Origin: a virus
Strand: one strand, 5' to 3'
DNA: 41,750 nucleotides
Virus record (IMG/VR): IMGVR_UViG_3300021368_000249
Coordinates: 1-41,750 of that record
The translations under genes were made by a program, and so were the position numbers. This document shows positions 12,288 to 41,750 of the stretch, piece after piece. The stretch's first letter is position 1; each line of letters starts with the position of its first letter. The notes below the pieces were generated by a model. The model was not told the DNA's origin and searched no databases. It worked only from the letters and a program-made list of their open reading frames with translations.

Positions 12288-14207
12288 TTATCTCCAGTTA
12301 TCTAAGTCCATGTTACTAGATTCATAGCCAGTAAAGCTAGGACTATATTCATATCCTAATTCTGCAAATTTTTCTTTTTGCATTCTTCTTATAGCTCTCA
12401 TTGGAAACCAACTTGCCATAACTATGTCAGTTTTTGTTCCAATACTTTTGCTCTTATTTTTAGCAGAACTAAAATATACTAACTGACTTGTATATAAGTT
12501 TACCTTCTCTTGGGCTTCAAAGCTAAGATATGGCAAAGAAATTATTTGTTCTTGGTACATAGGTCTCATAGCTGTTACACCATAAACTGGGTCAAATTTA
12601 TTTTTATATGTTTCGTGACCTTCCAAAAATATACCATGTGTTGATGCAAATTCTCTTATGCTTTTGTCTTGTCGTATAGCTTTTTGAAAACCATTCTCTT
12701 CAATAACCCAATGTGATAAATTATATTTACTCCACCATTCTTTAATTACAGCTAATGCTTGTGGTATACCTCCACCTAAACTATTGTTCATATCTACCAT
12801 ATACAATTTGTTTGCATCCATATTGTATGCCCACAAAAATGCAGCTTGGTAACCTGTAGACGCAGGGTCTAATCCTGCAATAAGTCTTGTACCTGGTGGT
12901 ATCTGTCCTATGTCTCTCTTTTGGTCTCTACATGCTTCTATTTCTGTTCTGTCAAACAAAGCAAGACCATCTGGCATAGCTACATTAAGATAAACCATTT
13001 CGTATATTGCTCTACCACCTGTAGTTTCTGCTGCTCTTTTTCTATCCATTAACCACTTGTAAGTTCTTTTACCTTTCCACAACATACAATTTTCATGTTC
13101 TTCTTCGTTCCAATCAGGTAAGTTACAACTTGTATCATGTGCTTCTTCTACTGTAGTTACCCAAGATTCGTTTTCTAAAAGGTGAGAATATAAATCGTCA
13201 TAGTGTTGTCTTGAACCTATAACTACCATTGCAGTGTGTTCCTCTTTACGACTTGACAATGTTGTAGTCCACCAGTTTCTTGTGTTTTCTCTTGACGCAG
13301 GTTGCATAGTAGAACTGTGGTCTTCAATATCGTCAGCAATAATAATATCGCAGTCTCTTGACAATATCTTACCACCACGACCAATGCCTACCATAGTAGG
13401 TGATTTTATACCTGTAACTGTTCTAGTACCTACAGTAAACTCAGTAGATGACCACGCTTTACCACTTCTGTTTTGTGGTTTAAATTTTGCTCCTGGTCCA
13501 CATATCTCTTCTATTAACAATTCATTATTTTCTAACTGGTCCATTACAGAAGACACAGAGTTTTTAGCAATATCTTCGTTACCACCAACCCACAGTATTC
13601 TTATGTTTGGATTATTACAGATAAGCCATACAGTAAAATGTATTAACAATTCTGTCTTACCATGTCTAGGTGGTGACAATATCATGTGCTGTTCACCATT
13701 TTCTATAGCAGTCAATATAGACTCTATCCACTTAATGTGAAACTCTGGTGTTTCAAATGGTACACCTTGTTCTGTTTCAAAATATCTATCTCTAAAATCT
13801 TTAAAATCTTCTAATGTTTTTTTTGCAACTTGTGGTACTTCCCAAGTTTTTTGTAATTCTTTTATTTCTGTATCTTCTACAAAAGCATTGTATGCCATAG
13901 ATACTGATGCAACTGATGTGTCTAGTATTTTTGCAACTTCAGACATAGTTAATTTTTTTTGTAGTATTTGCATACCTAGTTCTGACTCAACTAAATCTGT
14001 ATAGACTTTACCTCTTCGTTGTTGTACAGTTTTTTGGCTAGGTATATTAACAACATCATCTTCTTGTGTCCACTCTATACCTTTTGCTTTTGCTCTTTTC
14101 TTTTGTTGCGATATTCTATTACGACATCTAGTGCTGCAATACTTACTAGCTTTAGGTGGCAAAGGTCTTAAACAACCTGCTGCATAACATAATTTTTTAT
14201 TTACCAT
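12288..14207 (-). CDS. terL: Terminase large subunit with N-terminal zinc/HTH extension
   Basis: A 639-residue packaging motor. The ATPase carries a Walker A (SPPRHGKTE, ~178-186) and a Walker B (DIIIADDIED, ~285-295). The C-terminal RNase H-fold nuclease shows AGLDPAS and WVIEENG, with a late acidic residue near MASW. It is about 100-150 residues longer than a typical TerL because of its N-terminus. There Cys7, Cys12, Cys24 and Cys28 form a likely zinc site, followed by a basic stretch and a helix-turn-helix at ~87-108 (MSEVAKILDTSVASVSMAY). No separate small terminase is recognised nearby, so this extension may do its DNA-recognition job (inference). Confidence 0.95.
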   Translation of the reverse strand: MVNKKLCYAAGCLRPLPPKASKYCSTRCRNRISQQKKRAKAKGIEWTQEDDVVNIPSQKTVQQRRGKVYTDLVESELGMQILQKKLTMSEVAKILDTSVASVSMAYNAFVEDTEIKELQKTWEVPQVAKKTLEDFKDFRDRYFETEQGVPFETPEFHIKWIESILTAIENGEQHMILSPPRHGKTELLIHFTVWLICNNPNIRILWVGGNEDIAKNSVSSVMDQLENNELLIEEICGPGAKFKPQNRSGKAWSSTEFTVGTRTVTGIKSPTMVGIGRGGKILSRDCDIIIADDIEDHSSTMQPASRENTRNWWTTTLSSRKEEHTAMVVIGSRQHYDDLYSHLLENESWVTTVEEAHDTSCNLPDWNEEEHENCMLWKGKRTYKWLMDRKRAAETTGGRAIYEMVYLNVAMPDGLALFDRTEIEACRDQKRDIGQIPPGTRLIAGLDPASTGYQAAFLWAYNMDANKLYMVDMNNSLGGGIPQALAVIKEWWSKYNLSHWVIEENGFQKAIRQDKSIREFASTHGIFLEGHETYKNKFDPVYGVTAMRPMYQEQIISLPYLSFEAQEKVNLYTSQLVYFSSAKNKSKSIGTKTDIVMASWFPMRAIRRMQKEKFAELGYEYSPSFTGYESSNMDLDNWR

Positions 14208-14717: not shown

Positions 14718-14780
14718 TTACCTCTTGCTTATTCTTTTACTTGGGTATCTTTTCTTTTTACCCTTCTTGCTCATTGGCAT
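14718..14780 (-). CDS. Lysine/arginine-rich micro-protein, 20 residues, first late gene
   Basis: Runs from ATG 14780 to TAA 14718 and encodes a short peptide (MPMSKKGKKKRYPSK...) that is more than half Lys/Arg. A strong AGGAG site lies six bases before the ATG, and its end carries the ribosome site of the 85-residue gene two bases downstream. It is the first gene after the terminator-like hairpin in the late leader, so it may also serve as a leader peptide. The good ribosome site argues it is translated. Confidence 0.6.
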   Translation of the reverse strand: MPMSKKGKKKRYPSKRISKR

Positions 14781-14813
14781 TTCTAACTCCTGTTGTTGCT
14801 AAACCTTATCTTA

Positions 14814-14838
14814 ACACAAAACTCCACCGAAGTGGAGT
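14814..14838 (-). terminator. Intrinsic terminator or attenuator in the late leader
   Basis: On the minus strand a 7-bp stem (ACTCCAC/GTGGAGT) closes a TTCG loop and is followed by TTTGTGTT. The C(UUCG)G tetraloop makes it very stable, but the U tract is short. It lies 34 bases before the first late gene, so it must be read through, or be incomplete, for late expression. Confidence 0.6.
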
Positions 14839-14951
14839 CTTGTCGTACAGCATGTCCAATACTGTTATGAAAGAAAAAAGAAATAAACTTGAACCAACAC
14901 ACAATTCACAGAACTGTCTATATGATTTTCAGCTACTTTCTTATTCTTTTT

Positions 14952-15052
14952 GTATGTAGATATTTATTTTACATACTGGTTGTATCCCCATACAACCAAC
15001 CTAGGACTTTCCTAGGTGTATTTAGTATAGACTAGCCTCGTGCATACGAGGC
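14952..15052. promoter_or_regulatory. Array of consecutive hairpins in the late leader
   Basis: Three hairpins abut without a spare base: 14952-14976 (7-bp GTATGTA/TACATAC, 11-nt loop), 14977-14998 (9-bp TGGTTGTAT/ATACAACCA, 4-nt loop) and 14999-15017 (7-bp ACCTAGG/CCTAGGT, 5-nt loop). A fourth follows at 15035-15052 (7-bp GCCTCGT/ACGAGGC, 4-nt loop). All stems are perfect. No coding frame crosses the array convincingly. The array lies upstream of the late genes and of the 14814-14838 terminator, so a structured leader RNA is likely; which strand is used is inference. Confidence 0.65.
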
Positions 15053-15067
15053 GTAAAAAATTTTTTT

Positions 15068-15205
15068 TTAGGGTTGCCTATGTTCAATACATCTCTCACA
15101 TACACCATCTTTTAATTCATCAGACCAGTAAGGATGTAAACATTCGTCACAGTCTTCGCTAAATATAGATTGTTCTTTACCTTGGGCTATCTCTGGAAAT
15201 GTCAT
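15068..15205 (-). CDS. CxxC micro-protein, 45 residues
   Basis: Starts MTFPEIAQGKEQ and contains CDEC and CERC separated by ~13 residues, a zinc-ribbon-like arrangement. I prefer the ATG at 15205 to an upstream TTG (15256), because an extended -10 element ends about ten bases before this ATG, which would give a nearly leaderless mRNA. It is the most promoter-proximal gene on the late side of the control region, so it may be a regulator of late transcription (inference). Confidence 0.55.
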   Translation of the reverse strand: MTFPEIAQGKEQSIFSEDCDECLHPYWSDELKDGVCERCIEHRQP

Positions 15206-15215
15206 AATACTTTGT

Positions 15216-15224
15216 ATTATAGCA
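15216..15224 (-). promoter_or_regulatory. Extended -10 promoter (TGCTATAAT), leftward
   Basis: A perfect TGnTATAAT on the minus strand. There is no good -35, as the expected place is occupied by the 15227-15244 hairpin. Transcription would start near 15209, a few bases before the 45-residue gene's ATG, and could continue through the hairpin array into the late operon. Short or absent leaders are common in actinobacteria. Confidence 0.5.
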
Positions 15225-16081: not shown

Positions 16082-16828
16082 ATGAATAGTAAATACGCTA
16101 GGTTAGAAAAGAAGGACTATCCAAAATGGATAGATGAATTACATGTAAGCAAAAAATCTCCTGAAGATTATCTTACATCTTTCGCCAACTGGTGTGTAAA
16201 GTACGCAATTAAGAATGGTGTAGGAGATGTTAAGAATCTAGGTGATAAGCTCAGTGTACATATCTCAGATACCAGAGGTAGAAAAACAATAGCTAATCAT
16301 AATCAAGGTAAAGCTGTTGGTCTTTGTTATTCAACTCAATATTCTCCTGAACAAAAAATCAGAAGAATAGAAATTGATAGAGAGACTAGCGATACGCTAA
16401 AGGTCTTAGAGATTGTAGCCCATGAGGTAAGCCATGCGATTCATCCAGATTACACTGGTCATAAGGGAGCTTATGTAGACGCAGTGTTCTCTGTGTTTAA
16501 ACTAGCAGGTATTCCAACAATAACTTCTGTGTCTTTAGAATTCGCAGAATTGATTGAATCATGGTTAAAGAAATCTGGTAGCTATCCTTATCTAAGATTC
16601 GTAGATAAAAGAAAAAAGCAAACTACAAGAATGGTCAAACTATATTGCCCAGATTTAGATTGTGTAGGAGCTACAGATAAATCAACTAAACAAGGTCAAG
16701 GCACTATCTTTAGAATGTCTTCAGCGATTGTTGATAGAATTCAAGATAGAGGAGATTCTCTCTGGTGTCCAGTATGTTCTGGAATAGCTTATACAGATTC
16801 TCCAGTGTTAAGAGACATCTATGTTTAA
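16082..16828 (+). CDS. SprT-like zinc metallopeptidase-family protein
   Basis: A 248-residue protein with the metallopeptidase motif HEVSH (His114, Glu115, His118) followed by GHKGAY, where His127 is a likely third ligand. A C-terminal zinc ribbon is formed by Cys189/Cys194 and Cys229/Cys232. This layout matches the SprT-like family, known from DNA-protein crosslink proteases such as Spartan and found in many actinophages. Start by AGGA seven bases before the ATG. The TAA stop lies inside a GTTTAAAC site (16823), and a strong terminator follows, so it is its own transcription unit. In the phage it may clear proteins from DNA (inference). Confidence 0.82.
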   Translation: MNSKYARLEKKDYPKWIDELHVSKKSPEDYLTSFANWCVKYAIKNGVGDVKNLGDKLSVHISDTRGRKTIANHNQGKAVGLCYSTQYSPEQKIRRIEIDRETSDTLKVLEIVAHEVSHAIHPDYTGHKGAYVDAVFSVFKLAGIPTITSVSLEFAELIESWLKKSGSYPYLRFVDKRKKQTTRMVKLYCPDLDCVGATDKSTKQGQGTIFRMSSAIVDRIQDRGDSLWCPVCSGIAYTDSPVLRDIYV

Positions 16829-16860
16829 ACAAGCATAAACACAATCCCCCTTGTGTGCAG

Positions 16861-16892
16861 AATCCCCTGAGAAATCAGGGGATTTCTGTTTT
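16861..16892 (+). terminator. Strong intrinsic terminator after the SprT-like gene
   Basis: AATCCCCTGA pairs perfectly with TCAGGGGATT (10 bp) around a GAAA tetraloop and is followed by TTCTGTTTT. It separates the SprT-like gene from the main early operon, which must have its own promoter. Confidence 0.88.
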
Positions 16893-17283
16893 ATACCTGA
16901 GAGCACGATAGAGACGATTTAAGAGCACCATACCTATTCTGGAACTGTCATCCACAGTTGTCATACACTCTTCATACAGAGCCATTTAGGACACACAATA
17001 TATAGTATGTTATTTGTATACCTGTTTAAACAGAGGTAAAACATATAGTTGTTTAAACATGTCAAGGGATAAATAAATATTATTTGTAAACAAGTGTTGG
17101 TATATATCAGAGAGCTAGTAGATTTATATACAGGTAGATAATTGAACAAATTATTTACTCCTTTAATGCTAGGAGGATGGAGAGATTAAGGTTGCTTACT
17201 GAGTGAGATACTTAGGAGCTAAGAGTTAAACAAGTAAACGCACACCTAACTCATCTCTTCAGAATCCTGAGAAAGAGAGAACA
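16893..17283. promoter_or_regulatory. Control region of the main early operon
   Basis: About 390 bases without a convincing gene. It holds a hairpin AACTGT/ACAGTT (16943-16959) and the second copy of the ACACAATATATAGT repeat (16993-17018). Two GTTTAAAC sites lie at 17024 and 17051, 27 bp apart, the first extended to CTGTTTAAACAG. AT-rich hexamers such as TATATA near 17102 could be -10 elements but none has a good -35. AGGAGG at 17172 is followed by an ATG that gives only a nine-codon frame. The main early promoter probably lies here, flanked or covered by the palindromes. Confidence 0.5.
16993..17018. repeat. ATATATAG intergenic repeat, copy 2
   Basis: Matches 15666-15690 over ACACAATATATAGT and then GTTATTT, with a two-base insertion. 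It lies just before the paired GTTTAAAC sites. Confidence 0.55.
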
Positions 17284-17463
17284 ATGGAAGAAACAATCAA
17301 AGAGATAAATGGAATACTACGAAGAGCTAGTGTCTATTTACCAGAAGAAAAAGTACAAGCACTACAAGATGACTTGTTGCAATCAGTGTGGAAGAAAATG
17401 CACACAGATACATTAAGCAACTGGGAATCAATCAAAGAACAAGTAGAAGGCAGAGGTGTTTAA
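17284..17463 (+). CDS. Small early protein, 59 residues, unknown
   Basis: ATG 17284 to TAA 17463, beginning MEETIKEINGILRRASVYLP. It is helical and charged, with no motif recognised. It is the first gene of the main early operon. Its stop codon is inside the GTTTAAAC at 17458 and the next ATG follows three bases later, the first of six such junctions. Confidence 0.72.
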   Translation: MEETIKEINGILRRASVYLPEEKVQALQDDLLQSVWKKMHTDTLSNWESIKEQVEGRGV

Positions 17464-17466
17464 ACA

Positions 17467-17694
17467 ATGCCAGATACAGTAGAACAAATAATGTTGTTTG
17501 AATCAGGTGAACTAGATACTGAGGGTATCTTAAATCTATTCAGCAAACTAATTAAGAATGGACAGGCATGGACATTACAAGGAAGTTATGGACGCTATGC
17601 CAGTAGGTTAATAGAACTAGAACTGTTAACTAAAAAAGGTAAAATTACAGACTTTGGTAAAGAGACTGTAAGTAAGAGCAAGGAGAGTGTTTAA
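17467..17694 (+). CDS. Small early protein, 75 residues, unknown
   Basis: Begins MPDTVEQIMLFESGEL. The sequence from LNLFSKLIKNG to RLIELELLTKKGKIT has the rhythm of a small winged or three-helix domain seen in phage early proteins, with a short predicted strand pair at the end. Both of its ends lie at GTTTAAAC junctions. No enzyme motif. Function unknown. Confidence 0.78.
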   Translation: MPDTVEQIMLFESGELDTEGILNLFSKLIKNGQAWTLQGSYGRYASRLIELELLTKKGKITDFGKETVSKSKESV

Positions 17695-17697
17695 ACA

Positions 17698-18633
17698 ATG
17701 ACACAAGAAATAAAAGAAACAATAACAAAAGGACAAGCTATGGATATTGCAGACGCAAAGAAATTCAATGCTGATGTAGAGAATGTAGATGTCAATGGTG
17801 GCAAACCATGGAAGAGTACAGATGGTTTTAAGCCAGTAAGAGAGTACACATTAGAAGACAAGCTAGACTTCCTAGACTTTGATGTTAATGGTATCTATGG
17901 ACATGGTAGTGCTGTGTTTAAACAGCGACTATATCTTACAACAGATAGACACCAAGGTGGTATCAGTCTCACTGGATATGCTAGTAAGGATAAAGAAAAC
18001 AGAAGAGATAGAGAATCAGCAAACTTTTCTATCTACTTTGATAGCAAAGAACAGATTGTACGATTCGCAGAACAGTGTTTAAACATGCTGTTAGTAGCTG
18101 AGGAATCTACAGCACTAAGGGAGAGATACGAAGGCAACTGGGTAGATGGTAGACATCCAGATGTATTAGCACACTTCCCATCTTTATTAGATAGAACTAA
18201 ATGCAGAACTGGTAGATACTACTGGGATGGTAGTTTAAACAAGGTGGTAGAGATAACCAAAGATACACCAGAAGAAATCCTAGACGCTCATGGTGGTTAT
18301 GATGTTGATGAGGATGGCAACTTTGAGCAAGACTATGATAATGAGAGTGCAGAAGATATGTTAGAAGGTCTACTAGCAGGTATAGAATCTAACTGGGATA
18401 CAGAGAGATGGCAAGGCATACGACTAGCAGACTTACAGACAGGCATAGGAGCAAATAGGTGGAACGCTGATGGTATATCACAACGCAAAGGTAAGAATCC
18501 AGAGGACAAGAGAAGAAAACAATGGACTACTACTTTTAAATATACTGATGGCACAAGTGAGACACTTATAGGTTATTGGGAAATAACTAGAGGTGGAACA
18601 TTACAAAGAAACAACTGGAAGGAAAACAACTAG
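17698..18633 (+). CDS. Early protein, 311 residues, unknown
   Basis: The longest gene in the first half of the early operon. It has a charged N-terminus, a β-rich centre (GHGSAVFKQRLYLTTDRHQGG), a very acidic stretch around residues 190-230 and a Trp-rich C-terminal part (WTTTFKYTDG, LIGYWEITRG). No family is recognised. AGGAG lies upstream of the ATG with the palindrome in between. Three further GTTTAAAC sites fall inside the gene in different frames, encoding V-F-K-Q, C-L-N-M and L-N-K. Confidence 0.85.
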   Translation: MTQEIKETITKGQAMDIADAKKFNADVENVDVNGGKPWKSTDGFKPVREYTLEDKLDFLDFDVNGIYGHGSAVFKQRLYLTTDRHQGGISLTGYASKDKENRRDRESANFSIYFDSKEQIVRFAEQCLNMLLVAEESTALRERYEGNWVDGRHPDVLAHFPSLLDRTKCRTGRYYWDGSLNKVVEITKDTPEEILDAHGGYDVDEDGNFEQDYDNESAEDMLEGLLAGIESNWDTERWQGIRLADLQTGIGANRWNADGISQRKGKNPEDKRRKQWTTTFKYTDGTSETLIGYWEITRGGTLQRNNWKENN

Positions 18634-18647
18634 AAAGTGATGACAGC

Positions 18648-18673
18648 AGAGAGGTAAGTAGCCCTACCTCTCT
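18648..18673 (+). other. Intercistronic hairpin
   Basis: AGAGAGGTA/TACCTCTCT, a perfect 9-bp stem with an 8-nt loop, five bases before GTTTAAAC 18678. No T tract follows, so it is more likely a processing or stability element, or a partial terminator, than a strong terminator. Confidence 0.6.
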
Positions 18674-18699
18674 AGCTGTTTAAACAAAAAGGAGAAACA

Positions 18700-19254
18700 A
18701 TGGCAGAAGAATATTCAATACACGAAGTAATTATCTCAGATAGCAAAGGCAATCTATTTAATTATCACAGCGACTACATGAATGAGAATTTTAGTTATGA
18801 CAAAGAGCATGACCAAATCTCAGAGTACAAGTCAGAGTACAAGCCAACACAAATTAAAGAAATGTTAAAAGAAGAATTGGAATTGTTTCAATATTACATA
18901 GATGAAGGACTGTTTAATTACGACAGTGAGAAGGACATGACATTAGGATATGTTGAGACGACTGCTGATGAAGTAATTGAAAAGATTAAGAAGTGGGATT
19001 TTTCTCCCTTAGATAATCTAATAAGACACTACACAAGAATAACTTTATTAAGAGAGTTAGTAGGACAACCTTTAAATGCAAAGGAGGAGCAGTTAGCTAA
19101 GGACTTACACAACACAGTGGAAGTAGTACAACAGTTGTGGCAGTGTATAAGAAGAGAATACACATACCAAGAATCTAAAGTACACATGAAAGCATTCCAA
19201 GAAGGCAAGACTACTGCTAAGCAATTAGTAATAATAGACAAGGAGGATGTTTAA
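18700..19254 (+). CDS. Early protein, 184 residues, unknown
   Basis: Begins MAEEYSIHEVIISDSKGN, is acidic and mostly helical, with LVGQPLNAKEEQLAKDLH near the middle. No recognised domain. It has a good AAGGAG ribosome site six bases before the ATG, unlike the palindrome-junction genes, because here the GTTTAAAC (18678) lies before the ribosome site. Its stop lies in the next palindrome (19249). Confidence 0.8.
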   Translation: MAEEYSIHEVIISDSKGNLFNYHSDYMNENFSYDKEHDQISEYKSEYKPTQIKEMLKEELELFQYYIDEGLFNYDSEKDMTLGYVETTADEVIEKIKKWDFSPLDNLIRHYTRITLLRELVGQPLNAKEEQLAKDLHNTVEVVQQLWQCIRREYTYQESKVHMKAFQEGKTTAKQLVIIDKEDV

Positions 19255-19257
19255 ACA

Positions 19258-19635
19258 ATGAATGATGTAAGAAAATATCAAGGGTATGTAAACCAAACCT
19301 TGATGGACGCAGGTAAACACAACGACATAAATTATATAAAGATAATGCACAGCTTGTTTAAACAAGGTCATCTTAACTTTGAACAATGCACAATGTTCTT
19401 TAGAACTCTGATTAGGAAGGCAGACCAGAAGGCATACAGAGAATTCCTTGATGTAAATAAGGCAGTGGCAGACCAAGTACAAGACATGTTGGACTATGGA
19501 TGGATAACACAAGATGGTGAGTACACAGAGCACTGTTTAAACAAACTCAAAGAGATGGGATTTGGTATGACAATGGGAGAGACTAAGCCAATAAACTTGC
19601 CAAATGGTATGGAACTTATGGAGGAGGAACAGTAA
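19258..19635 (+). CDS. Early protein, 125 residues, unknown
   Basis: Begins MNDVRKYQGYVNQTLMDAG. It is helical with many aromatic and methionine residues; no motif is recognised. It starts at a GTTTAAACAATG junction with AGGAGG just before the palindrome. Two internal GTTTAAAC sites (19356, in a 14-bp perfect palindrome, and 19535) encode L-F-K-Q and C-L-N-K, in different frames. Coupled to the next gene by TAATG. Confidence 0.78.
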   Translation: MNDVRKYQGYVNQTLMDAGKHNDINYIKIMHSLFKQGHLNFEQCTMFFRTLIRKADQKAYREFLDVNKAVADQVQDMLDYGWITQDGEYTEHCLNKLKEMGFGMTMGETKPINLPNGMELMEEEQ

Positions 19636-19883
19636 TGCCAAGTAGTTTAGAGTACGAATATCCAGTCAGGGATTATGGTGTAAGAATATATATAAAACCA
19701 TTAGATGCTATTGATTTATCAGTAGTGTGTGATGAGACAGAGATAGGTAATAGAGCAAGAGAACATGCTGATTATATTATTGCTGAAGTTGTTGACCAAG
19801 TTAAAAAACAGCTAGAAGATATAGAGCTAGGTAGTGGTATAGCAGTTGTAGAAAAACGACCTGCAAACTGGATGGATGTTTAA
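19635..19883 (+). CDS. Small early protein, 82 residues, unknown
   Basis: Begins MPSSLEYEYPVRDYGVRIYIK. An N-terminal β hairpin-like region is followed by an acidic helix. No family is recognised. The start is the TAATG overlap preceded by GGAGG; the stop is in GTTTAAAC 19878. Confidence 0.75.
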   Translation: MPSSLEYEYPVRDYGVRIYIKPLDAIDLSVVCDETEIGNRAREHADYIIAEVVDQVKKQLEDIELGSGIAVVEKRPANWMDV

Positions 19884-19886
19884 ACA

Positions 19887-20003
19887 ATGACAGACAGTCT
19901 ATGTATTGTATGCAAAACTAACCCAAAAGAATTTAAAATTGTGGATTCAGTTTTAGTGTGCTGTGTAGATTGTAATTATAAGGAAGAAAACAAGGAGAGA
20001 TAA
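19887..20003 (+). CDS. CxxC micro-protein, 38 residues
   Basis: ATG 19887 (GTTTAAACAATG junction) to TAA 20003, directly followed by the next ATG. The product begins MTDSLCIVCKTN and has CIVC and CCVDC, a compact four- or five-cysteine zinc site, with a basic/acidic tail. One of several such micro-proteins here. A small zinc-binding regulator or inhibitor of a host protein is plausible; function is unknown. Confidence 0.68.
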   Translation: MTDSLCIVCKTNPKEFKIVDSVLVCCVDCNYKEENKER

Positions 20004-20225
20004 ATGGAGACATACATAATAGTAGGAGCTGTGATTGTAGCATGGATATGGAGTGGACTGTTAGCAGACAGGTACGCACTAAGGAAGGCATACAAGGAGC
20101 AGTACAGACTACATAACATAATGACTAACAGATACAACTTTGTAGTTGATATGTTAAATGAAGAACAGCAGATTATATTACACAAGTGGTATGTAGATAC
20201 CAATGTTATAGAGGAAGGTGTTTAA
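20004..20225 (+). CDS. Small membrane protein, 73 residues
   Basis: The N-terminus METYIIVGAVIVAWIWSGLL is a single membrane helix with no cleavage site. It is followed by a basic, then mixed helical cytoplasmic-type segment (RYALRKAYKEQYRL). Good AAGGAG upstream. Probably a membrane-anchored early protein, possibly affecting host envelope or superinfection (inference). Confidence 0.75.
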   Translation: METYIIVGAVIVAWIWSGLLADRYALRKAYKEQYRLHNIMTNRYNFVVDMLNEEQQIILHKWYVDTNVIEEGV

Positions 20226-20228
20226 ACA

Positions 20229-20354
20229 ATGCCAATATTTAGAGTAGTAATAGAAGTAGACGAACCATCTTTGGAGGACGCTGAAGACCATATACAAAGT
20301 CTTAGTGGCAGTGATTTAGTAGATGAGATAGTAGAAGTAGAAGAGGAGGAATAA
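20229..20354 (+). CDS. Acidic micro-protein, 41 residues
   Basis: ATG 20229, three bases after the GTTTAAAC of the previous stop, to TAA 20354. Begins MPIFRVVIEVDEPSLEDAE and ends in a run of Glu. The β-strand then helix pattern resembles that of the next gene, to which it is coupled by TAATG. Possibly a pair of related small proteins. Confidence 0.65.
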   Translation: MPIFRVVIEVDEPSLEDAEDHIQSLSGSDLVDEIVEVEEEE

Positions 20355-20554
20355 TGAGTGATGTATACGAGATTGTTAGTACAAGCAGTGAAGATGCAAA
20401 CAAATTAACTGTGGACTTTACCTTCTCTTCAGATGTATCTAAAGAAGACGCAATAGCACAGATAGATAGCTTAGTATCTTTAGCAGACGACAACGCAGAG
20501 ATAGAATTTGTAGACCATGAACCTAAATTCTGGGAGATAAGTCAATTTAACTGA
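20354..20554 (+). CDS. Acidic small protein, 66 residues
   Basis: Begins MSDVYEIVSTSSEDANKL. It shows an alternating strand/helix pattern and strong net negative charge, a feature seen in DNA-mimic and anti-host proteins, but nothing specific is recognised. Coupled to the upstream gene by TAATG with GAGGAGG as ribosome site. Confidence 0.72.
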   Translation: MSDVYEIVSTSSEDANKLTVDFTFSSDVSKEDAIAQIDSLVSLADDNAEIEFVDHEPKFWEISQFN

Positions 20555-20567
20555 GGTCTATGTTTAA

Positions 20568-20605
20568 ACAAGGTGTAAGTTTTATTCATTGTACTTGCAC
20601 CTTGT
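20568..20605 (+). other. 13-bp hairpin beside a GTTTAAAC site
   Basis: ACAAGGTGTAAGT (20568-20580) pairs with ACTTGCACCTTGT (20593-20605), 12 Watson-Crick pairs and one G-U, around a 12-nt loop. It overlaps the last bases of GTTTAAAC 20562. No T tract. Probably an mRNA processing or stability element within the operon. Confidence 0.65.
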
Positions 20606-20635
20606 ACCTCAATAGTTATTTACATAGGAGAAAAC

Positions 20636-20677
20636 ATGGAGTATAATTCAATAGAGGATTACATAGGAGAACTATGA
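20636..20677 (+). CDS. Possible 13-residue peptide
   Basis: ATG 20636 behind TAGGAGAAAAC, stop overlapping the next ATG as ATGA (MEYNSIEDYIGEL). The phrase TTACATAGGAGAA occurs both before and inside it (about 20620 and 20660), a short tandem duplication that may have copied the ribosome site. It may be a coupling leader for the 52-residue gene. Confidence 0.4.
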   Translation: MEYNSIEDYIGEL

Positions 20678-20832
20678 TATATCAAGTACGAAGTACAAGT
20701 GTGTATGGTGGAGTGATGACTTGGGAATACAACAACAAGTATGACGCACAATGCAAAGTACGAGAACTTAAAGACTTAGGTGGTATGTTTTTGGTTAAGC
20801 TAGTTGAGATACCAGTAGCAGAAACAGTCTAA
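20674..20832 (+). CDS. Small early protein, 52 residues
   Basis: ATG 20674 to TAA 20832, beginning MIYQVRSTSVYGGVMTWEYN. It has a two-strand then helix pattern, ending in a hydrophobic strand. AGGAG lies in the overlapping 13-codon frame. No family is recognised. Confidence 0.65.
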   Translation: MIYQVRSTSVYGGVMTWEYNNKYDAQCKVRELKDLGGMFLVKLVEIPVAETV

Positions 20833-20866
20833 GCGAAACAAAAGAAGAAGAGAAGGAGGTGGGCTT

Positions 20867-21088
20867 ATGCCTAATATATTTGACGACCCTAAAAGTATCA
20901 AGACATGGGCAATTAAATTAGCAAATGCTTGTGGTGGACAGAAGGTAGAAAAAGGATTACTACTTACCAGTTTAAACACGAAGAGAATAGGTGAGTTGTT
21001 AGACGAATTTGTTGCCGACCATAATGAGAACACACAAAAGATAGCACTGCAGATGCAGGAGCAGGAAGAAAACAAGGAGGAAGAATGA
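20867..21088 (+). CDS. Small early protein, 73 residues, unknown
   Basis: Begins MPNIFDDPKSIKTWAIKLA. It is helical and ends in a Gln/Glu-rich tail, with a strong AAGGAGG ribosome site. It overlaps the HTH gene by four bases (ATGA). An internal GTTTAAAC (20970) encodes S-L-N-T. It may act with the HTH protein as a pair, as the overlap implies a fixed ratio. Confidence 0.75.
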   Translation: MPNIFDDPKSIKTWAIKLANACGGQKVEKGLLLTSLNTKRIGELLDEFVADHNENTQKIALQMQEQEENKEEE

Positions 21089-21393
21089 GCGAATTACAAA
21101 TTATAAATGATTCTTTTATTACTGGTAGTGATGGCAAGGTCAGTTATGTCAATGGTGTTGAGATGTTCTTTAAAGATATACCAGAAGGTCAGCATGAAGA
21201 TAGACTTGTATATCTTACAGAGTTAATCAAAGACAATAGACTACTAGAAAAAAAATTGTCTCAACAAAGAGCTAGACTTATTACATACATAGTCAAGAAC
21301 AAGATAATGTCTGTTATAAAAGTAGCAGAGATTATAAAAGTAAGTAGGCAGAGAGTCTACAAGATTATAGAAAGCAAACAGGAGGAAGAATAG
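21085..21393 (+). CDS. Small helix-turn-helix protein
   Basis: 102 residues. The N-terminal half is mixed; the C-terminal end (residues ~75-97, VIKVAEIIKVSRQRVYKII) is a good helix-turn-helix with a basic recognition helix, followed by an acidic tail. Residues 45-70 form a possible dimer coil. It is the only free-standing HTH protein I recognise in the genome, making it a candidate to bind GTTTAAAC, though that link is inference. It lies directly before the annealing protein gene. Confidence 0.75.
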   Translation: MSELQIINDSFITGSDGKVSYVNGVEMFFKDIPEGQHEDRLVYLTELIKDNRLLEKKLSQQRARLITYIVKNKIMSVIKVAEIIKVSRQRVYKIIESKQEEE

Positions 21394-21394
21394 T

Positions 21395-22360
21395 ATGGAC
21401 GATAAAAAGATAAAAGAAATTACTAAACCATTTAGTAAAGATGAAATTAAAAAAGCACCTAAAGGTAAGTTCGGTCAGTATGTACCACACCATTTAGTCA
21501 CTAAGCGTTTAAACAAGGTGGCTTATGGAGAGTGGTCTCACACATTAAAAGAAGTTGTTAGAAATTCTAATGGTGAGATTAGAGCAGTTGTCACTACCTT
21601 TACATTATGGGGAGTAAGCCATGATGAAGTTGGGGATGTAGATAATGTTGATGTTAAAAACAACAACACTGAAGGCAACCTTTTAAAACTTTGTATGAGT
21701 GACGCACTAAAGCGTGGAGCTATGCGTCACAATATTGGATTACATCTTTGGACTGGTGATATTACAGAAGAAGAATTTTATTCAGGTCAAGATGATAATG
21801 TTGAAGTAGCAAAAGTAGACAAGCGTAAAAAAGAAAACAAGCCGACACAAAAAGTCAAGGATATAACTGAAGAATCTATCAAGAAGTTTGAAGAGGACAT
21901 TGGTTATAAGAAGGTGGCTAAACAAATAGCAAGTGTTATTGAAGGATTTGATTTACCTAAAGATATAGAGAACCAAGCTAAGCAAACATCTTATACACAA
22001 TTTACTGGACAAGGTAATGACAAAGATGTAGAGAAGTGGGATAACAATATGATTGGTCAATACCTTGACTTGTTTGAACAGATAGCAAATGAGATTGGTG
22101 ATAAGGCAGAGCAAGAAGGAATTATTGCAGATGTCTTTGGAGAAGTAGAACAAAAACCTGTTATGAAAAACCCAGGGGATAGCCCAACTGAAAAACAGAT
22201 GGAGAAGTTTAACCAAGCTATCAGTAAATCAACAGACAAAGGCGACATGGACTTAGTTAAAAAAGCAAAGAAGTTTTTAGCTGATGGTCTACTCACAAAA
22301 GGTAATGTATTTGACTGGATAGATAATGATGGAGACTGGTCATTAAAGGATGGTTCATAG
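21395..22360 (+). CDS. Rad52-like single-strand annealing protein
   Basis: A 321-residue protein. The N-terminal ~125 residues have the Rad52/22-type pattern: YVPHHLVTKRLNKV, then GEWSHTL, a β-rich section and DALKRGAMRHNIGLHLW. In phages this family anneals single strands during recombination-dependent replication and repair. The rest is a Lys/Glu-rich linker and a C-terminal helical domain (~250-321) that may bind partners. GTTTAAAC at 21507 lies in the LNK codons. It is followed by a gene with an SSB-like tail and, three genes on, a nuclease, forming a recombination module. Confidence 0.82.
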   Translation: MDDKKIKEITKPFSKDEIKKAPKGKFGQYVPHHLVTKRLNKVAYGEWSHTLKEVVRNSNGEIRAVVTTFTLWGVSHDEVGDVDNVDVKNNNTEGNLLKLCMSDALKRGAMRHNIGLHLWTGDITEEEFYSGQDDNVEVAKVDKRKKENKPTQKVKDITEESIKKFEEDIGYKKVAKQIASVIEGFDLPKDIENQAKQTSYTQFTGQGNDKDVEKWDNNMIGQYLDLFEQIANEIGDKAEQEGIIADVFGEVEQKPVMKNPGDSPTEKQMEKFNQAISKSTDKGDMDLVKKAKKFLADGLLTKGNVFDWIDNDGDWSLKDGS

Positions 22361-22657
22361 GTGTCACTTGAGAGTGCAGGGCAAATCTTTAATGTAGATA
22401 AACTTAAATCTAAATTAAAAGAGAGATACCCTAACCATAACTTTGATGTTGTAGCTCAACCAGATACTAAACATAAAGCACCACATGTCTGTTTAAACAA
22501 CAAGATATTTTATACAGACATGGAGGGCAACACATATTGTGGAGCAAGATACAAACAAACAGAAGAAGATAACTACCATAAGTGGACATACCAAGTGTGT
22601 CATGCCATGGTAAAAAAAGCAGACCAAGGAGGTAATCAAGATGTCATCCCCTTTTGA
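22361..22657 (+). CDS. Protein with SSB-like C-terminal tip, 98 residues, GTG start
   Basis: The GTG start follows the upstream TAG with no gap. The frame begins SLESAGQIFNVDKLK and has a β-rich centre (APHVCLNNKIFYTDMEGNTY). It ends GGNQDVIPF, close to the D-D-I-P-F tip by which bacterial SSB recruits repair proteins. It lacks a clear OB-fold signature. It may be a recombination accessory that binds the same host partners as SSB; this is inference from the tail and the neighbouring annealing protein. Confidence 0.68.
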   Translation: MSLESAGQIFNVDKLKSKLKERYPNHNFDVVAQPDTKHKAPHVCLNNKIFYTDMEGNTYCGARYKQTEEDNYHKWTYQVCHAMVKKADQGGNQDVIPF

Positions 22658-22835
22658 AGAGATGAGCAAACCATTACAAGAGTTTTGGATTAGACAAAAA
22701 GAAGTAGGTAATGTTAAAGCTGTACCACGAGGAGCTAACTGTATGCTGTGTGCCAGTGAATTAACAGACCAAGATGAAGACCATAGTGTATGTAATATAT
22801 GTTGGGTAAAGCTAGGTGATGATAATGAATTGTAA
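22641..22835 (+). CDS. CxxC zinc-binding small protein, 64 residues
   Basis: Begins MSSPFEEMSKPLQEFWIRQ. The C-terminal half has CMLC and CNIC with 15 residues between, a zinc ribbon. It overlaps the previous gene by 17 nt, with GGAGG upstream, and the next by 11 nt. Probably part of the recombination module or a small transcription modulator. Confidence 0.75.
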   Translation: MSSPFEEMSKPLQEFWIRQKEVGNVKAVPRGANCMLCASELTDQDEDHSVCNICWVKLGDDNEL

Positions 22836-22923
22836 AGAATGTGGATTAGCACCTGAGACTACACTTACACATGATGGCAGATGTGTTGGTTGTATAGCAC
22901 ACATGATAGAGGACTGTGTTTAA
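22825..22923 (+). CDS. CxxC micro-protein, 32 residues
   Basis: ATG 22825 to TAA 22923, with the stop inside GTTTAAAC 22918. The product begins MNCKECGLAPETTL and contains CKEC and CVGC plus a His-rich end, a minimal zinc ribbon. It lies between two real genes with short overlap and no free space, which supports it being coding. Confidence 0.62.
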   Translation: MNCKECGLAPETTLTHDGRCVGCIAHMIEDCV

Positions 22924-22926
22924 ACA

Positions 22927-23403
22927 ATGAGCAATACATACAAAGACACATACGAATCAAGAAACAGTGGTGAAGACATGGCAGACTTGGCAATGCAAAA
23001 ACATTTAGAAGCTAATGAATGTGTAGAGTATATAGATTACTTACGCATAGGAACTGACCCTAAAGAAAACAAACTGGACTTGTTCTGGTATGCAACAAAG
23101 ATACTACTGCTACCAGATTACATACTGGTTCGTAAAGGATATATATACTTTATAGAAGTTAAAGGAACTAACAAACTTAAAGCAGAAGACTACTACAAGA
23201 TACAAGAGATGGCATTTAAAGGTTCAAGATTTAAAGAAGTCAAGGTAGGTATCATGTATTTTAAAAGCATAAATGCAGACCCAGTGTGGATAGACCACCA
23301 TAAATTATATGATTACTGGACTGACCCAAGAATACCATTACAGTATTATCCAGAAAAAGATTTTATGGGCAACGCCAAAGCGTACAAAGAACTACCTGTT
23401 TAA
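22927..23403 (+). CDS. PD-(D/E)XK nuclease
   Basis: 158 residues with the nuclease core LPDYILVRKGYIYFIEVKG: Asp64 and then Glu77-Val-Lys79, the PD-(D/E)XK signature. A GED near residues 15-17 may be the N-terminal acidic residue. Such small phage nucleases act as junction resolvases or exonucleases. It is the last gene of the early block, starts at a GTTTAAACAATG junction and ends in another GTTTAAAC (23398). Confidence 0.82.
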   Translation: MSNTYKDTYESRNSGEDMADLAMQKHLEANECVEYIDYLRIGTDPKENKLDLFWYATKILLLPDYILVRKGYIYFIEVKGTNKLKAEDYYKIQEMAFKGSRFKEVKVGIMYFKSINADPVWIDHHKLYDYWTDPRIPLQYYPEKDFMGNAKAYKELPV

Positions 23404-35460: not shown

Positions 35461-36585
35461 TTAAGCTACTGCTTGAATCTTGCAATGGTATGAAGGAGGA
35501 CCAAATTCAAATCCCATCTCCATATAGATTGCTTTACCAATTCTAGCGTTGGCATCTTGGTCTAAGTCACGAACAAACACAGTACCAAATCCTGGGATAT
35601 TGGTGAATACTGGTTGTATGTAAGCTAGGTCTAAGATGAAAGCAGTTCCTGTTGGCATAATATCTGGGTCAATAACCATTAGTCCGATTGAACCAAATGG
35701 TGTAATGACTGTATCAATATCGATACCTGCAACATTTCTATCTCTAGGAATGATTGCTCCTGCTATATCAACTGTTCCTTTAACAAGTTCGTTGTTAAGG
35801 TCTAGTAATTGTTGTGGGCTAACACAGAGAACAGGTTGTTTCATTGGTGCATGGTTGTCATACATCCTCTTCAACGCACCTGAAATAGTTTTGAAACTGA
35901 TTACTTGTGCTGTACCTGTTCCATCACCATCTGTGTCGTTGTAGTAGCAGTTACCACCTAGTGGGTTTACTGCTGCAGAGTTTGAGGCGTTTTTGTTTAA
36001 TGTAATCCATACATCAAGACCATACATTTCTCTAGTTCCTGACCCTGGGGTAACATTAGCACCATCAGAGAAAGAACCATTGAATGCAAACCACTCAACT
36101 TCTCTTGCTACTTTTTCCATTGCTTTTTCGAGTTGCAATGCAAACTCATCATTAATTGGGTTTCCACCAAATAATCCTTGTGCTGTACCTGCTGTTGTTG
36201 TTCCATCACCATCAGATTGATTTGTAATAGCTGCAGATAAAGTAAATGGATTTTGGTTGCCTGTTGAAGCTAAAGCTGTGTATGTCATTTGAACACCTTT
36301 ATGGAAAATCTGAGTTACATAGGTGTATGCAGCTCTGTCTCTTCCGAGATATTCTGTAGGTGCAGCACCTTCTTGACCTTTAGTAGGTTCAGAAGAAACT
36401 GTTGCATTATCTTCTACTTGGACTTGCCAGTATGTAGAGTTTAATACTTTACCACCATTCAAACCACCAACTGCTGAAAGCAATGGAGTTCTTTGACCAC
36501 CAACTTTAAACAATTCACCAGTGAAGTTATTAATGTCTTGTGCGTAAATTGGGGTACTTGCGTTTAACCCTGTAATTTCTGCCAT
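35461..36585 (-). CDS. Major capsid protein
   Basis: 374 residues, preceded by a good AGGAG site (TATAGGAGAAGAAAATG) and by the scaffold gene. It contains RDRAAYTYVTQIFHKGVQMT and EVEWFAFNGSFSDG...REMYGLDVWI, the pattern of DUF5309/SU10-type major capsid proteins, which have the HK97 fold. The C-terminal part has PIFGTVFVRD-type P-domain strands. It forms the icosahedral shell around the packaged genome. Confidence 0.85.
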   Translation of the reverse strand: MAEITGLNASTPIYAQDINNFTGELFKVGGQRTPLLSAVGGLNGGKVLNSTYWQVQVEDNATVSSEPTKGQEGAAPTEYLGRDRAAYTYVTQIFHKGVQMTYTALASTGNQNPFTLSAAITNQSDGDGTTTAGTAQGLFGGNPINDEFALQLEKAMEKVAREVEWFAFNGSFSDGANVTPGSGTREMYGLDVWITLNKNASNSAAVNPLGGNCYYNDTDGDGTGTAQVISFKTISGALKRMYDNHAPMKQPVLCVSPQQLLDLNNELVKGTVDIAGAIIPRDRNVAGIDIDTVITPFGSIGLMVIDPDIMPTGTAFILDLAYIQPVFTNIPGFGTVFVRDLDQDANARIGKAIYMEMGFEFGPPSYHCKIQAVA

Positions 36586-40050: not shown

Positions 40051-41750
40051 TTACCTATTCTCCTGTAGTTTAGCATATTCTCCAAAGGCATAATCAATTA
40101 TAGGTTCACTTATCTTCCATGACAACGACCATGTATCAGATATATCGCCAAACTCTGACCATGTATCTTTACCAAATTGTTTCCAATCAACATCTTGATA
40201 CACTGGTTCATTTCCTTCTAATGTTTTACCACCCATAAAAGATGGAACATACTCAGGTCCACTTTCAATACCTTGTTTTTCTGCAGCTTTTTGTATTGCT
40301 TGTGCTGCATCAATAGCTAGTACAGTTAATTCATATCCTATATAAGCTGCTAATGCAGGTCCTGATATTGCAGCTACACCTAGTCTAGGCAACAATCTTA
40401 TAATACCTTGTGTTATAGCTATATCACCTGGGTCTAACACACCTGCAAATGTATTAAATGCTTTACCTACAACTTTTTTAGCTGAGTTAAAAATACCATC
40501 TACTACTTCTGGTTGTGCGTTTGCAAAATCACTTACCTTGTTTACAGGTGTATAATCTACTAAATCAGCAGCATCTTCAACTACATTACCTGCAGCTTTG
40601 ATAATTTCCTCTGGCATTAGTGCTACTTTTTGTGATGCAAATGGTCTATCAGAAGGAGGTATATATCCTGCGTCTGCCTTACTTAGTAGGTTTCCATCAG
40701 CATCTCTCATGTGTTTTCCATAATTTGTAAATGTATTTTGACCTAATGTTTCTGTAGTCATAACTCTTCTAGCATCTGGAGAATACATCTCTTTATGAGC
40801 TAACCATGCGTTGTATTCACCTACTGGACCAAAAGTATTACCTCTCATACCATGTCCAAATGTGTCATGCACAGCTCTAAAGACATCATTCTCTAGCATT
40901 ACTCTTCCATTTACATCTGTGTATTGAGATTCAGCTAACATAGGATTTAATCTACTTGTAGCTTCATCACCAAATCCTGCTTCTGTAGCTAATATTTTTA
41001 ACCTACCATTCTCCATATCAGCTATCATTTGTTGATGACCTGCTCTATTAGGTGTATATGGGTCTGTATCTACTAATTCAAACTCTATACCTGCATCTAG
41101 TAATACTTGATACTGCATATTAGTTTCTTGTATAAACTTTTTGTAATAAGGTATTGCATTGTCATCAAACATAGGTAGCTGTTCAAATATATCTGCTGTT
41201 GCTGCACCTATCTCATCATTAAACACCATGGCAGGTTTAAACTCTGGGTCAGAATATCCCATTATCTTGTGATAGTCTTGTGCTACTTGTCTAATCCTAT
41301 CGCTATGTGTTGATAAGCCTGTTTCACTACTAACTCTTTGTGTTTGATTAGGAGGTGTGTCTAGTGAATTACCTCGTACAATGTTGTCTACTTCTTCTAC
41401 TACTTCTGGAACATCTACAACAGCTTTTCTTATATCTGAACTTGCTATATCTAAATCTACACCATCACCTGCATTGGCTCTCATACTTGCCATAGCTTCA
41501 CCTAATTCTGGAAAATCATTCATCATTTCTTTTACTGTTTCATTAATTTTTACAATGTCAGTTGGGTTTGGTAATGGGTCTACAGGATTTGGAGCATACA
41601 CTACTCCTTTTGCAGCAACTCTTCTTTGAAACTCTGGGGTTAATATATTAGTACCAATACCATCTAGCATTTGTAAGTATGGTGTATCTGTCCTAGCGTA
41701 GCCTATAAATACATGATATGGGTCACTCATAGCCATAGCTTCATTGGTAT
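40051..41750 (-). CDS. Large virion protein, C-terminal part (continues at 1-1000)
   Basis: The frame is open through the right window edge and joins the left-edge frame, so the ATG at 41736 is internal. Complete length is 841 residues. At full-length residues ~570-575 lies HDTFGH, followed by a conserved-looking stretch (GEYNAWLAHKEMYS, TTETLGQNTFTNYG); the H-D-x-F-G-H spacing recalls metal-binding histidines. A hydrophobic segment at ~732-762 (GVAAISGPALAAYIGYELTV) could cross a membrane. Such a protein might be ejected into the host during infection. Enzymatic activity is speculative. Confidence 0.85.
   Translation of the reverse strand, partial: TNEAMAMSDPYHVFIGYARTDTPYLQMLDGIGTNILTPEFQRRVAAKGVVYAPNPVDPLPNPTDIVKINETVKEMMNDFPELGEAMASMRANAGDGVDLDIASSDIRKAVVDVPEVVEEVDNIVRGNSLDTPPNQTQRVSSETGLSTHSDRIRQVAQDYHKIMGYSDPEFKPAMVFNDEIGAATADIFEQLPMFDDNAIPYYKKFIQETNMQYQVLLDAGIEFELVDTDPYTPNRAGHQQMIADMENGRLKILATEAGFGDEATSRLNPMLAESQYTDVNGRVMLENDVFRAVHDTFGHGMRGNTFGPVGEYNAWLAHKEMYSPDARRVMTTETLGQNTFTNYGKHMRDADGNLLSKADAGYIPPSDRPFASQKVALMPEEIIKAAGNVVEDAADLVDYTPVNKVSDFANAQPEVVDGIFNSAKKVVGKAFNTFAGVLDPGDIAITQGIIRLLPRLGVAAISGPALAAYIGYELTVLAIDAAQAIQKAAEKQGIESGPEYVPSFMGGKTLEGNEPVYQDVDWKQFGKDTWSEFGDISDTWSLSWKISEPIIDYAFGEYAKLQENR
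41577..41750. repeat. Terminal direct repeat, right copy
   Basis: Same sequence as 1-174 except C at 41624 (T at 48). Overlap of a circular assembly; non-redundant genome 41,576 bp. Confidence 0.93.

Follow-up and report, generated by a model that had tools for sequence, protein, structure and literature searches.

The minus strand between positions 15017 and 14814 of the virus contig analysed here quite probably encodes a discrete structured non-coding RNA of about 200 nt, termed RNA1, which would be transcribed from a promoter of its own (P1b), end at a terminator fused to a second promoter (P2) and likely act in trans. The contig, referred to throughout as the window, is 41,750 bases long with 35% G+C and comes from IMG/VR. 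Dozens of related IMG/VR contigs carry RNA1, and the lack of an Rfam match, together with the comparison with put RNA and with the Pleft RNA of mycobacteriophages, leads to its being classed here as a new family among the small structured RNAs of phages, unusual in the fusion of its terminator to a promoter.

Phages carry little non-coding DNA, yet this one devotes nearly a kilobase to structured RNAs that have no counterpart in Rfam and are conserved in dozens of marine contigs. RNA1 offers a concrete RNA with a predicted start, end and structure in a phage group without a cultured relative, as well as a compact element whose bases serve as terminator and promoter at once. Its parallel to the abundant, unexplained small RNAs of mycobacteriophages means that function could become testable across groups.

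The hairpin region sits between small genes on the plus strand and the structural block on the minus strand:

12288-14207, minus strand: terminase of the structural block (PHROG 38)
35461-36585, minus strand: SU10-type major capsid protein of the structural block (Pfam PF17236)
16082-23403, plus strand: small genes and a single-strand-annealing protein

A terminase search gathered 80 relatives of the window.

Predicted boundaries and structure of RNA1

The elements in and around RNA1, in minus-strand order, are as follows:

15244-15216, minus strand: P1, a GC hairpin at 15244-15227 (CCCTCCT-GCGA-AGGAGGG) and then the extended -10 TGC-TATAAT at 15224-15216; predicted promoter of the CxxC micro-gene
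15205-15068, minus strand: 45-codon open reading frame (ORF) with two CxxC pairs, almost leaderless and separate from RNA1
15069-15055, minus strand: A9T6 tract at about -52 to -38 of P1b, resembling an UP element
15029-15024, minus strand: -10 box TATACT of P1b, the promoter-like box of RNA1
about 15017 to about 14814, minus strand: RNA1, about 200 nt, from the predicted +1 of P1b to its predicted end at H7
15017-14999, minus strand: H2, first hairpin of RNA1, 8 bp with the loop AAG (AAG or AAA), starting at about the predicted +1
14998-14977, minus strand: H3, second hairpin, 9 bp with the loop GGGG, a G-R-G-R tetraloop in most relatives
14976-14952, minus strand: H4, optional hairpin of 7 bp (GTATGTA..TACATAC)
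about 14949-14871, minus strand: H5, long imperfect hairpin with an A-rich and a U-rich arm, from individual folds
14865-14847, minus strand: H6, ACAGU..ACUGU around the loop UGGACA
14843-14816, minus strand: H7, terminator-like UUCG hairpin, 12 bp including G-U, predicted 3' end of RNA1
14818-14808, minus strand: P2, predicted late promoter, extended -10 TGTGT-TAAGAT within the tail of H7, +1 at about 14801

RNA1 would be started by P1b, a promoter recognised through its conservation, and its consecutive hairpins would fold from the first nucleotide onwards until the transcript, about 200 nt long, reached the putative intrinsic terminator with the UUCG loop. The -10 box of P1b follows the consensus TAYANT over 39 distinct relatives, with T and A in 39/39 each, A4 in 38/39 and the final T in 37/39. 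Between it and the first paired base of H2 lie 6 nt in the window and about 6 nt in relatives, which places the start of H2 at about the predicted +1 (~15017). The A/T tract upstream is present in all 43 of the relatives whose sequence reaches that far, mostly at 22-25 nt from the -10 box.

Over 14814-15017 the predicted folding energy is -75.4 kcal/mol, whereas dinucleotide shuffles give -41.9 +/- 4.2 (z = -8.0), none of the 200 being as low. Sequences of H2 and H3 were aligned to a covariance model, R1. In this alignment, which takes in the sequences that built R1, 94.7% of the cells of the two stems are paired and 12 of the 17 pairs are changed on both sides (H2, 97.2% and 7 of 8 pairs; H3, 92.3% and 5 of 9). 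Double-changed cells were as numerous in 0 of 500 shuffles, and pairing falls to 28-43% in slid controls. A held-out set of 33 other distinct sequences, fitted like the first alignment to R1's own structure, has 90.7% of cells paired and both-side changes at 12 of 17 pairs (H2, 87.8% and 6 of 8; H3, 93.2% and 6 of 9); shuffles reached the held-out values in 0 of 500 cases for double-changed cells and for the covariation score, and in 8 of 500 for the count of pairs with changes on both sides. Counts of relatives here include overlapping contigs and related sequences, and covariation counts are not numbers of independent events.

No base separates H2, H3 and H4. Where present, H4 is nearly invariant, and this scarcity of variation leaves it without covariation support; it is absent from about half of the relatives in the alignments. 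Folding relatives one by one gives a similar prediction for H5. The arms and UGGACA loop of H6 are conserved, with variable loop length and spacing to the terminator; a stricter H6 pattern search gave no matches. An additional conserved module (GTAGGTGCGAGGACC...ACTGCCTAC), for which there was no Rfam match, is inserted between H5 and H6 in five relatives (L009, L022, L053, L170, L186). Its presence in some relatives only indicates that RNA1 gains and loses hairpins as modules. CsrA-type GGA loops were considered as a feature of RNA1 and rejected, since GGA is not universal in H3.

Two hallmarks of a small-RNA gene are thus found together. One is a promoter and a terminator of its own, with the P1b box in nearly all of the 39 distinct relatives and H7 100% paired. 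The other is a conserved structure without coding capacity, with covariation in the training and held-out sets; no ORF within RNA1 is conserved among relatives, and a small ORF inside it was rejected as a candidate on that ground.

Many paired cells of H2, H3 and H7 are G-U when read on the minus strand and would be A-C mismatches on the plus strand, which identifies RNA1 as a minus-strand RNA. The hairpins precede the large terminase gene by about 600 nt, a position that could suit a DNA-level element such as a packaging (pac/cos) site beside that gene; another candidate would be a replication origin whose hairpins extrude. Wobbles confined to one strand, UUCG and GNRA loops and a -10 box at a fixed distance speak for RNA instead and leave a DNA element barely conceivable.

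A first-pass annotation had read the region as a structured leader of the late operon, running from the extended -10 at 15224-15216 through the 45-codon CxxC gene, four hairpins (three abutting) and the UUCG hairpin. All of these elements lie where it placed them, and the stems covary in relatives as it had proposed to check, with pairs of H2, H3 and H7 changed on both sides and the held-out set included. A structured RNA followed by a terminator-like hairpin likewise stands, given the z of -8.0; its assignment as a late-operon leader does not, nor does a transcript beginning at the 15224 promoter, as the hairpins have a promoter of their own and begin at its predicted +1. H2-H4 survive from the four-hairpin array. 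The first hairpin (15052-15035, minus strand, 7 bp) lies between the A/T tract and the -10 box of P1b, and is placed outside RNA1 because it is upstream of P1b and unconserved; H5 and H6 had been missed.

The terminator-like hairpin and the predicted late promoter

The H7 helix is paired in 100% of cells over 27 distinct relatives, with four pairs changed on both sides and loops of UUCG, GCAA or GUGA. In nearly every relative that has this junction, the UUCG-type hairpin runs straight into TTTTGTGN-TANNNT, L043 being broken there. Across the 31 relatives of alignment A3 the P2 element reads TGTGN-TANNNT, in which TTTTGTG, TA and the last T are invariant (31/31) and the three middle letters vary, a pattern that marks it as an extended -10 rather than a U-tract.

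The distance from the P2 -10 to the first late ATG, determined for 49 relatives, is 6-7 nt in 15, 9 nt in 1, 22-28 nt in 32 and 54 nt in 1. With the 6-7 nt spacing the start site of P2 falls at about the A of the ATG, making these 15 relatives leaderless, while nearly all members of the 22-28 nt class have an AGGAG ribosome site. The window, at 27 nt, belongs to the latter class.

In the window's lineage the tail of the terminator would serve twice, as the end of one transcription unit and as the extended -10 of P2; the fused element is predicted to end RNA1, to shield P2 from upstream transcription and to start the late genes. This tail is U-poor (UUUUGUGUU), so partial read-through from the terminator into the late genes is possible.

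Several apparently unrelated viral contigs (L085, L086, L087, L092, L098, L126 and others) also fuse a UUCG hairpin to TTTTGTGNTANNNT, and such terminator-promoter fusions may be common in phages of this kind. A search of viral contigs for a hairpin plus extended -10 pattern, one base longer than the window's own element and so missing the window's relatives, returned 64 stretches, many of them stemless and near the number expected by chance.

RNA1 among relatives and its likely independence

Of 54 further contigs fetched through a different element upstream, 39 match R1; 87 other loci yielded no match. RNA1 stands in another setting in a second lineage (for example L210, L223, L225, L233, L235, L266, L162, L186, L170): there a canonical terminator with a T-rich tail closes it, this terminator is not followed by a P2-type extended -10, and what separates RNA1 from the late genes is the CxxC gene or an opposite-strand ORF (MSDYIKGNKYPN...). 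RNA1 often comes directly after an upstream structured RNA, RNA2, in this lineage. Its retention whatever gene follows, the second lineage included, makes RNA1 most likely an independent RNA gene and not a leader of the late operon. It is lost between P1b and P2 in L019 and L020, and the RNA1 model found no match in L041, L044-L046 and L067, so it is not essential to all relatives.

In the window the RNA comes directly after the CxxC ORF, and P1 is a good extended -10, its GC hairpin (15244-15227) carrying GCGA, GCAA or GAAA loops among relatives. The hairpins could accordingly be taken for the 3' untranslated region and decay shield of a CxxC messenger started at P1. RNA1 has its own conserved -10, however, and persists in L028 and L037, where the CxxC gene is absent, and in L162, L186 and L170, where that gene lies on the opposite side of it, which makes the untranslated-region explanation highly improbable. 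P1 and the CxxC gene are lost jointly in L031, L035 and L037. The 45-codon ORF itself has no PHROG or Pfam match.

The same changes of context bear on the proposal of the first-pass annotation that the structured RNA gates the late structural block by antitermination. In a put-like version acting in cis, H2-H3 would bind the RNA polymerase that made them and cause read-through of the UUCG terminator into the late operon. The layout does recall HK022, in which putL forms two stem-loops just downstream of PL (PMC9378689): two neighbouring, here abutting, hairpins stand at the 5' end of a phage transcript behind a strong-looking promoter and are followed by a terminator. The put RNA, of about 70 nt, folds into two bulged stem-loops (a bulge and triplex in stem I, an internal region in stem II), binds the zinc-binding domain of the RNA polymerase beta' subunit and acts on downstream terminators in its own operon (PMC9378689). 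In contrast, H2-H3 are 41 nt of uninterrupted stems of 8 and 9 bp, with loops of 3 and 4 nt in most relatives, and have none of the bulges, triplex and internal loops of put. RNA1 also does not lie within the operon that it would control, and exists where no operon follows. The late genes have a promoter of their own after the terminator: P2 (TGTGT-TAAGAT, 14818-14808), predicted and conserved in relatives, falls within 14780-14820, the interval in which the annotation had held that a late promoter would contradict gating. In the other lineage an opposite-strand ORF or the CxxC gene follows instead, the late block is not enriched in internal terminators that antitermination would have to overcome, and a search of 20.7 kb of HK022 with R1 gave no match. 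Taken together, these points leave gating of the late block unsupported and make put-like antitermination very unlikely.

A late regulator, either Q-like or an RNA-binding antiterminator at H6, might alternatively control read-through of the terminator or activate P2, with the RNA as its landing site. H6 with its UGGACA loop ranks with the best conserved parts and immediately precedes the terminator, at about 45-65 bp from the late start on its upstream side, but it is kept equally in relatives that have no promoter after the terminator, and its variable loop length and spacing fit an RNA hairpin more than a DNA operator. In lambdoid phages, lambda Q and 21Q antitermination acts at the junction before the late operon. 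The terminator here precedes the late promoter P2 instead of following it, unlike in lambda, and no Q-like protein was recognised among the ten proteins screened. Control by such a regulator is distinctly unlikely.

For RNA1 as an independent gene, action in trans is most likely, the sole basis for this being the changing context, in which RNA1 is kept whatever gene lies downstream. The conserved loops of RNA1 (AAG, GRGR, UGGACA) would then bind a protein or RNA of the host or of the phage. Closest in kind, as judged by analogy, is the small Pleft RNA of the mycobacteriophages L5, D29 and StarStuff, an abundant, stable and functionally unexplained transcript from a host-toxic region (PMC5712189). 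Both belong to actinobacteriophages, probably so in the case of RNA1, and are short and non-coding, with their own promoter and no conserved ORF. Whereas the abundance of Pleft RNA has been measured and it has no evident stem-loop terminator (PMC5712189), RNA1 is a predicted transcript with a clear putative terminator, fused in the window's lineage to a late promoter. R1 found no match in the right end of D29. A search of Rfam with the window and eight relatives gave no match at the gathering score, and only chance-level matches below it. The fuller interpretation is offered tentatively, as one possibility: an undescribed stand-alone RNA family of marine, probably actinobacterial, phages, one of three tandem non-coding RNAs at the early/late junction, which might act in trans, perhaps as a decoy, on the machinery of host transcription or translation.

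Neighbouring structured RNAs and the probable viral host

Upstream of RNA1 lies RNA2 (15624-15348, minus strand), a second conserved structured non-coding region with 85% mean column identity over 23 relatives, whose 5' block is present in 74 viral stretches and for which there was no Rfam match. Its helix GTAATAGC..GCTAGTTAC covaries, one pair being C-G in 13 and G-C in 10 sequences. Wobbles in two of its helices agree with the minus strand, although folding of single sequences slightly favours the plus strand. Further upstream, at about 15725-15695, repeated GGTACT..TAGTRGGGTAC motifs are kept in many relatives and may be the promoter region of RNA2 or operators.

RNA3 (about 15312-15227, minus strand) consists of a conserved box, TGTTATACT, followed by the pairable segments CAAGAAAGG..CCTTTCTTTG and then by the GC hairpin 15244-15227 fused to P1, repeating the layout of promoter, structured RNA, hairpin and next promoter. 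A hairpin loop of RNA2 (15384-15376, minus strand) holds the only copy of CCTCCTTTC in the window, and CCTCCTTTCT occurs in the RNA3 of relatives too, the window's site being 15269-15259 (minus strand). These motifs seem to resemble the anti-Shine-Dalgarno end of 16S rRNA.

The nearest matches of the window's capsid protein are actinobacteriophage capsids, and the terminase and capsid have 23-29% identity to phages of Streptomyces, Mycobacterium and others. When the window's DNA was compared with GenBank phages, the only matches were a short gene for a basic peptide and a stray stretch of recombinase. The H2-H3 pattern gave 23 matches across bacterial genomes, in unrelated organisms, none of which was accepted by the RNA model, and pointed to no host. 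Capsid similarity and the frequent leaderless starts suggest that the host of this marine phage is probably actinobacterial, and the G+C content of the window is near that of marine Actinomarinales, at about 32.5% (PMC7771536). Read by eye, the two ends of the contig (1 to about 160 and about 41600-41750) seem to encode the same protein stretch (the start of MAMSDPYHVFIGYARTDTPYLQML...), which suggests that the genome is probably circular or terminally redundant.
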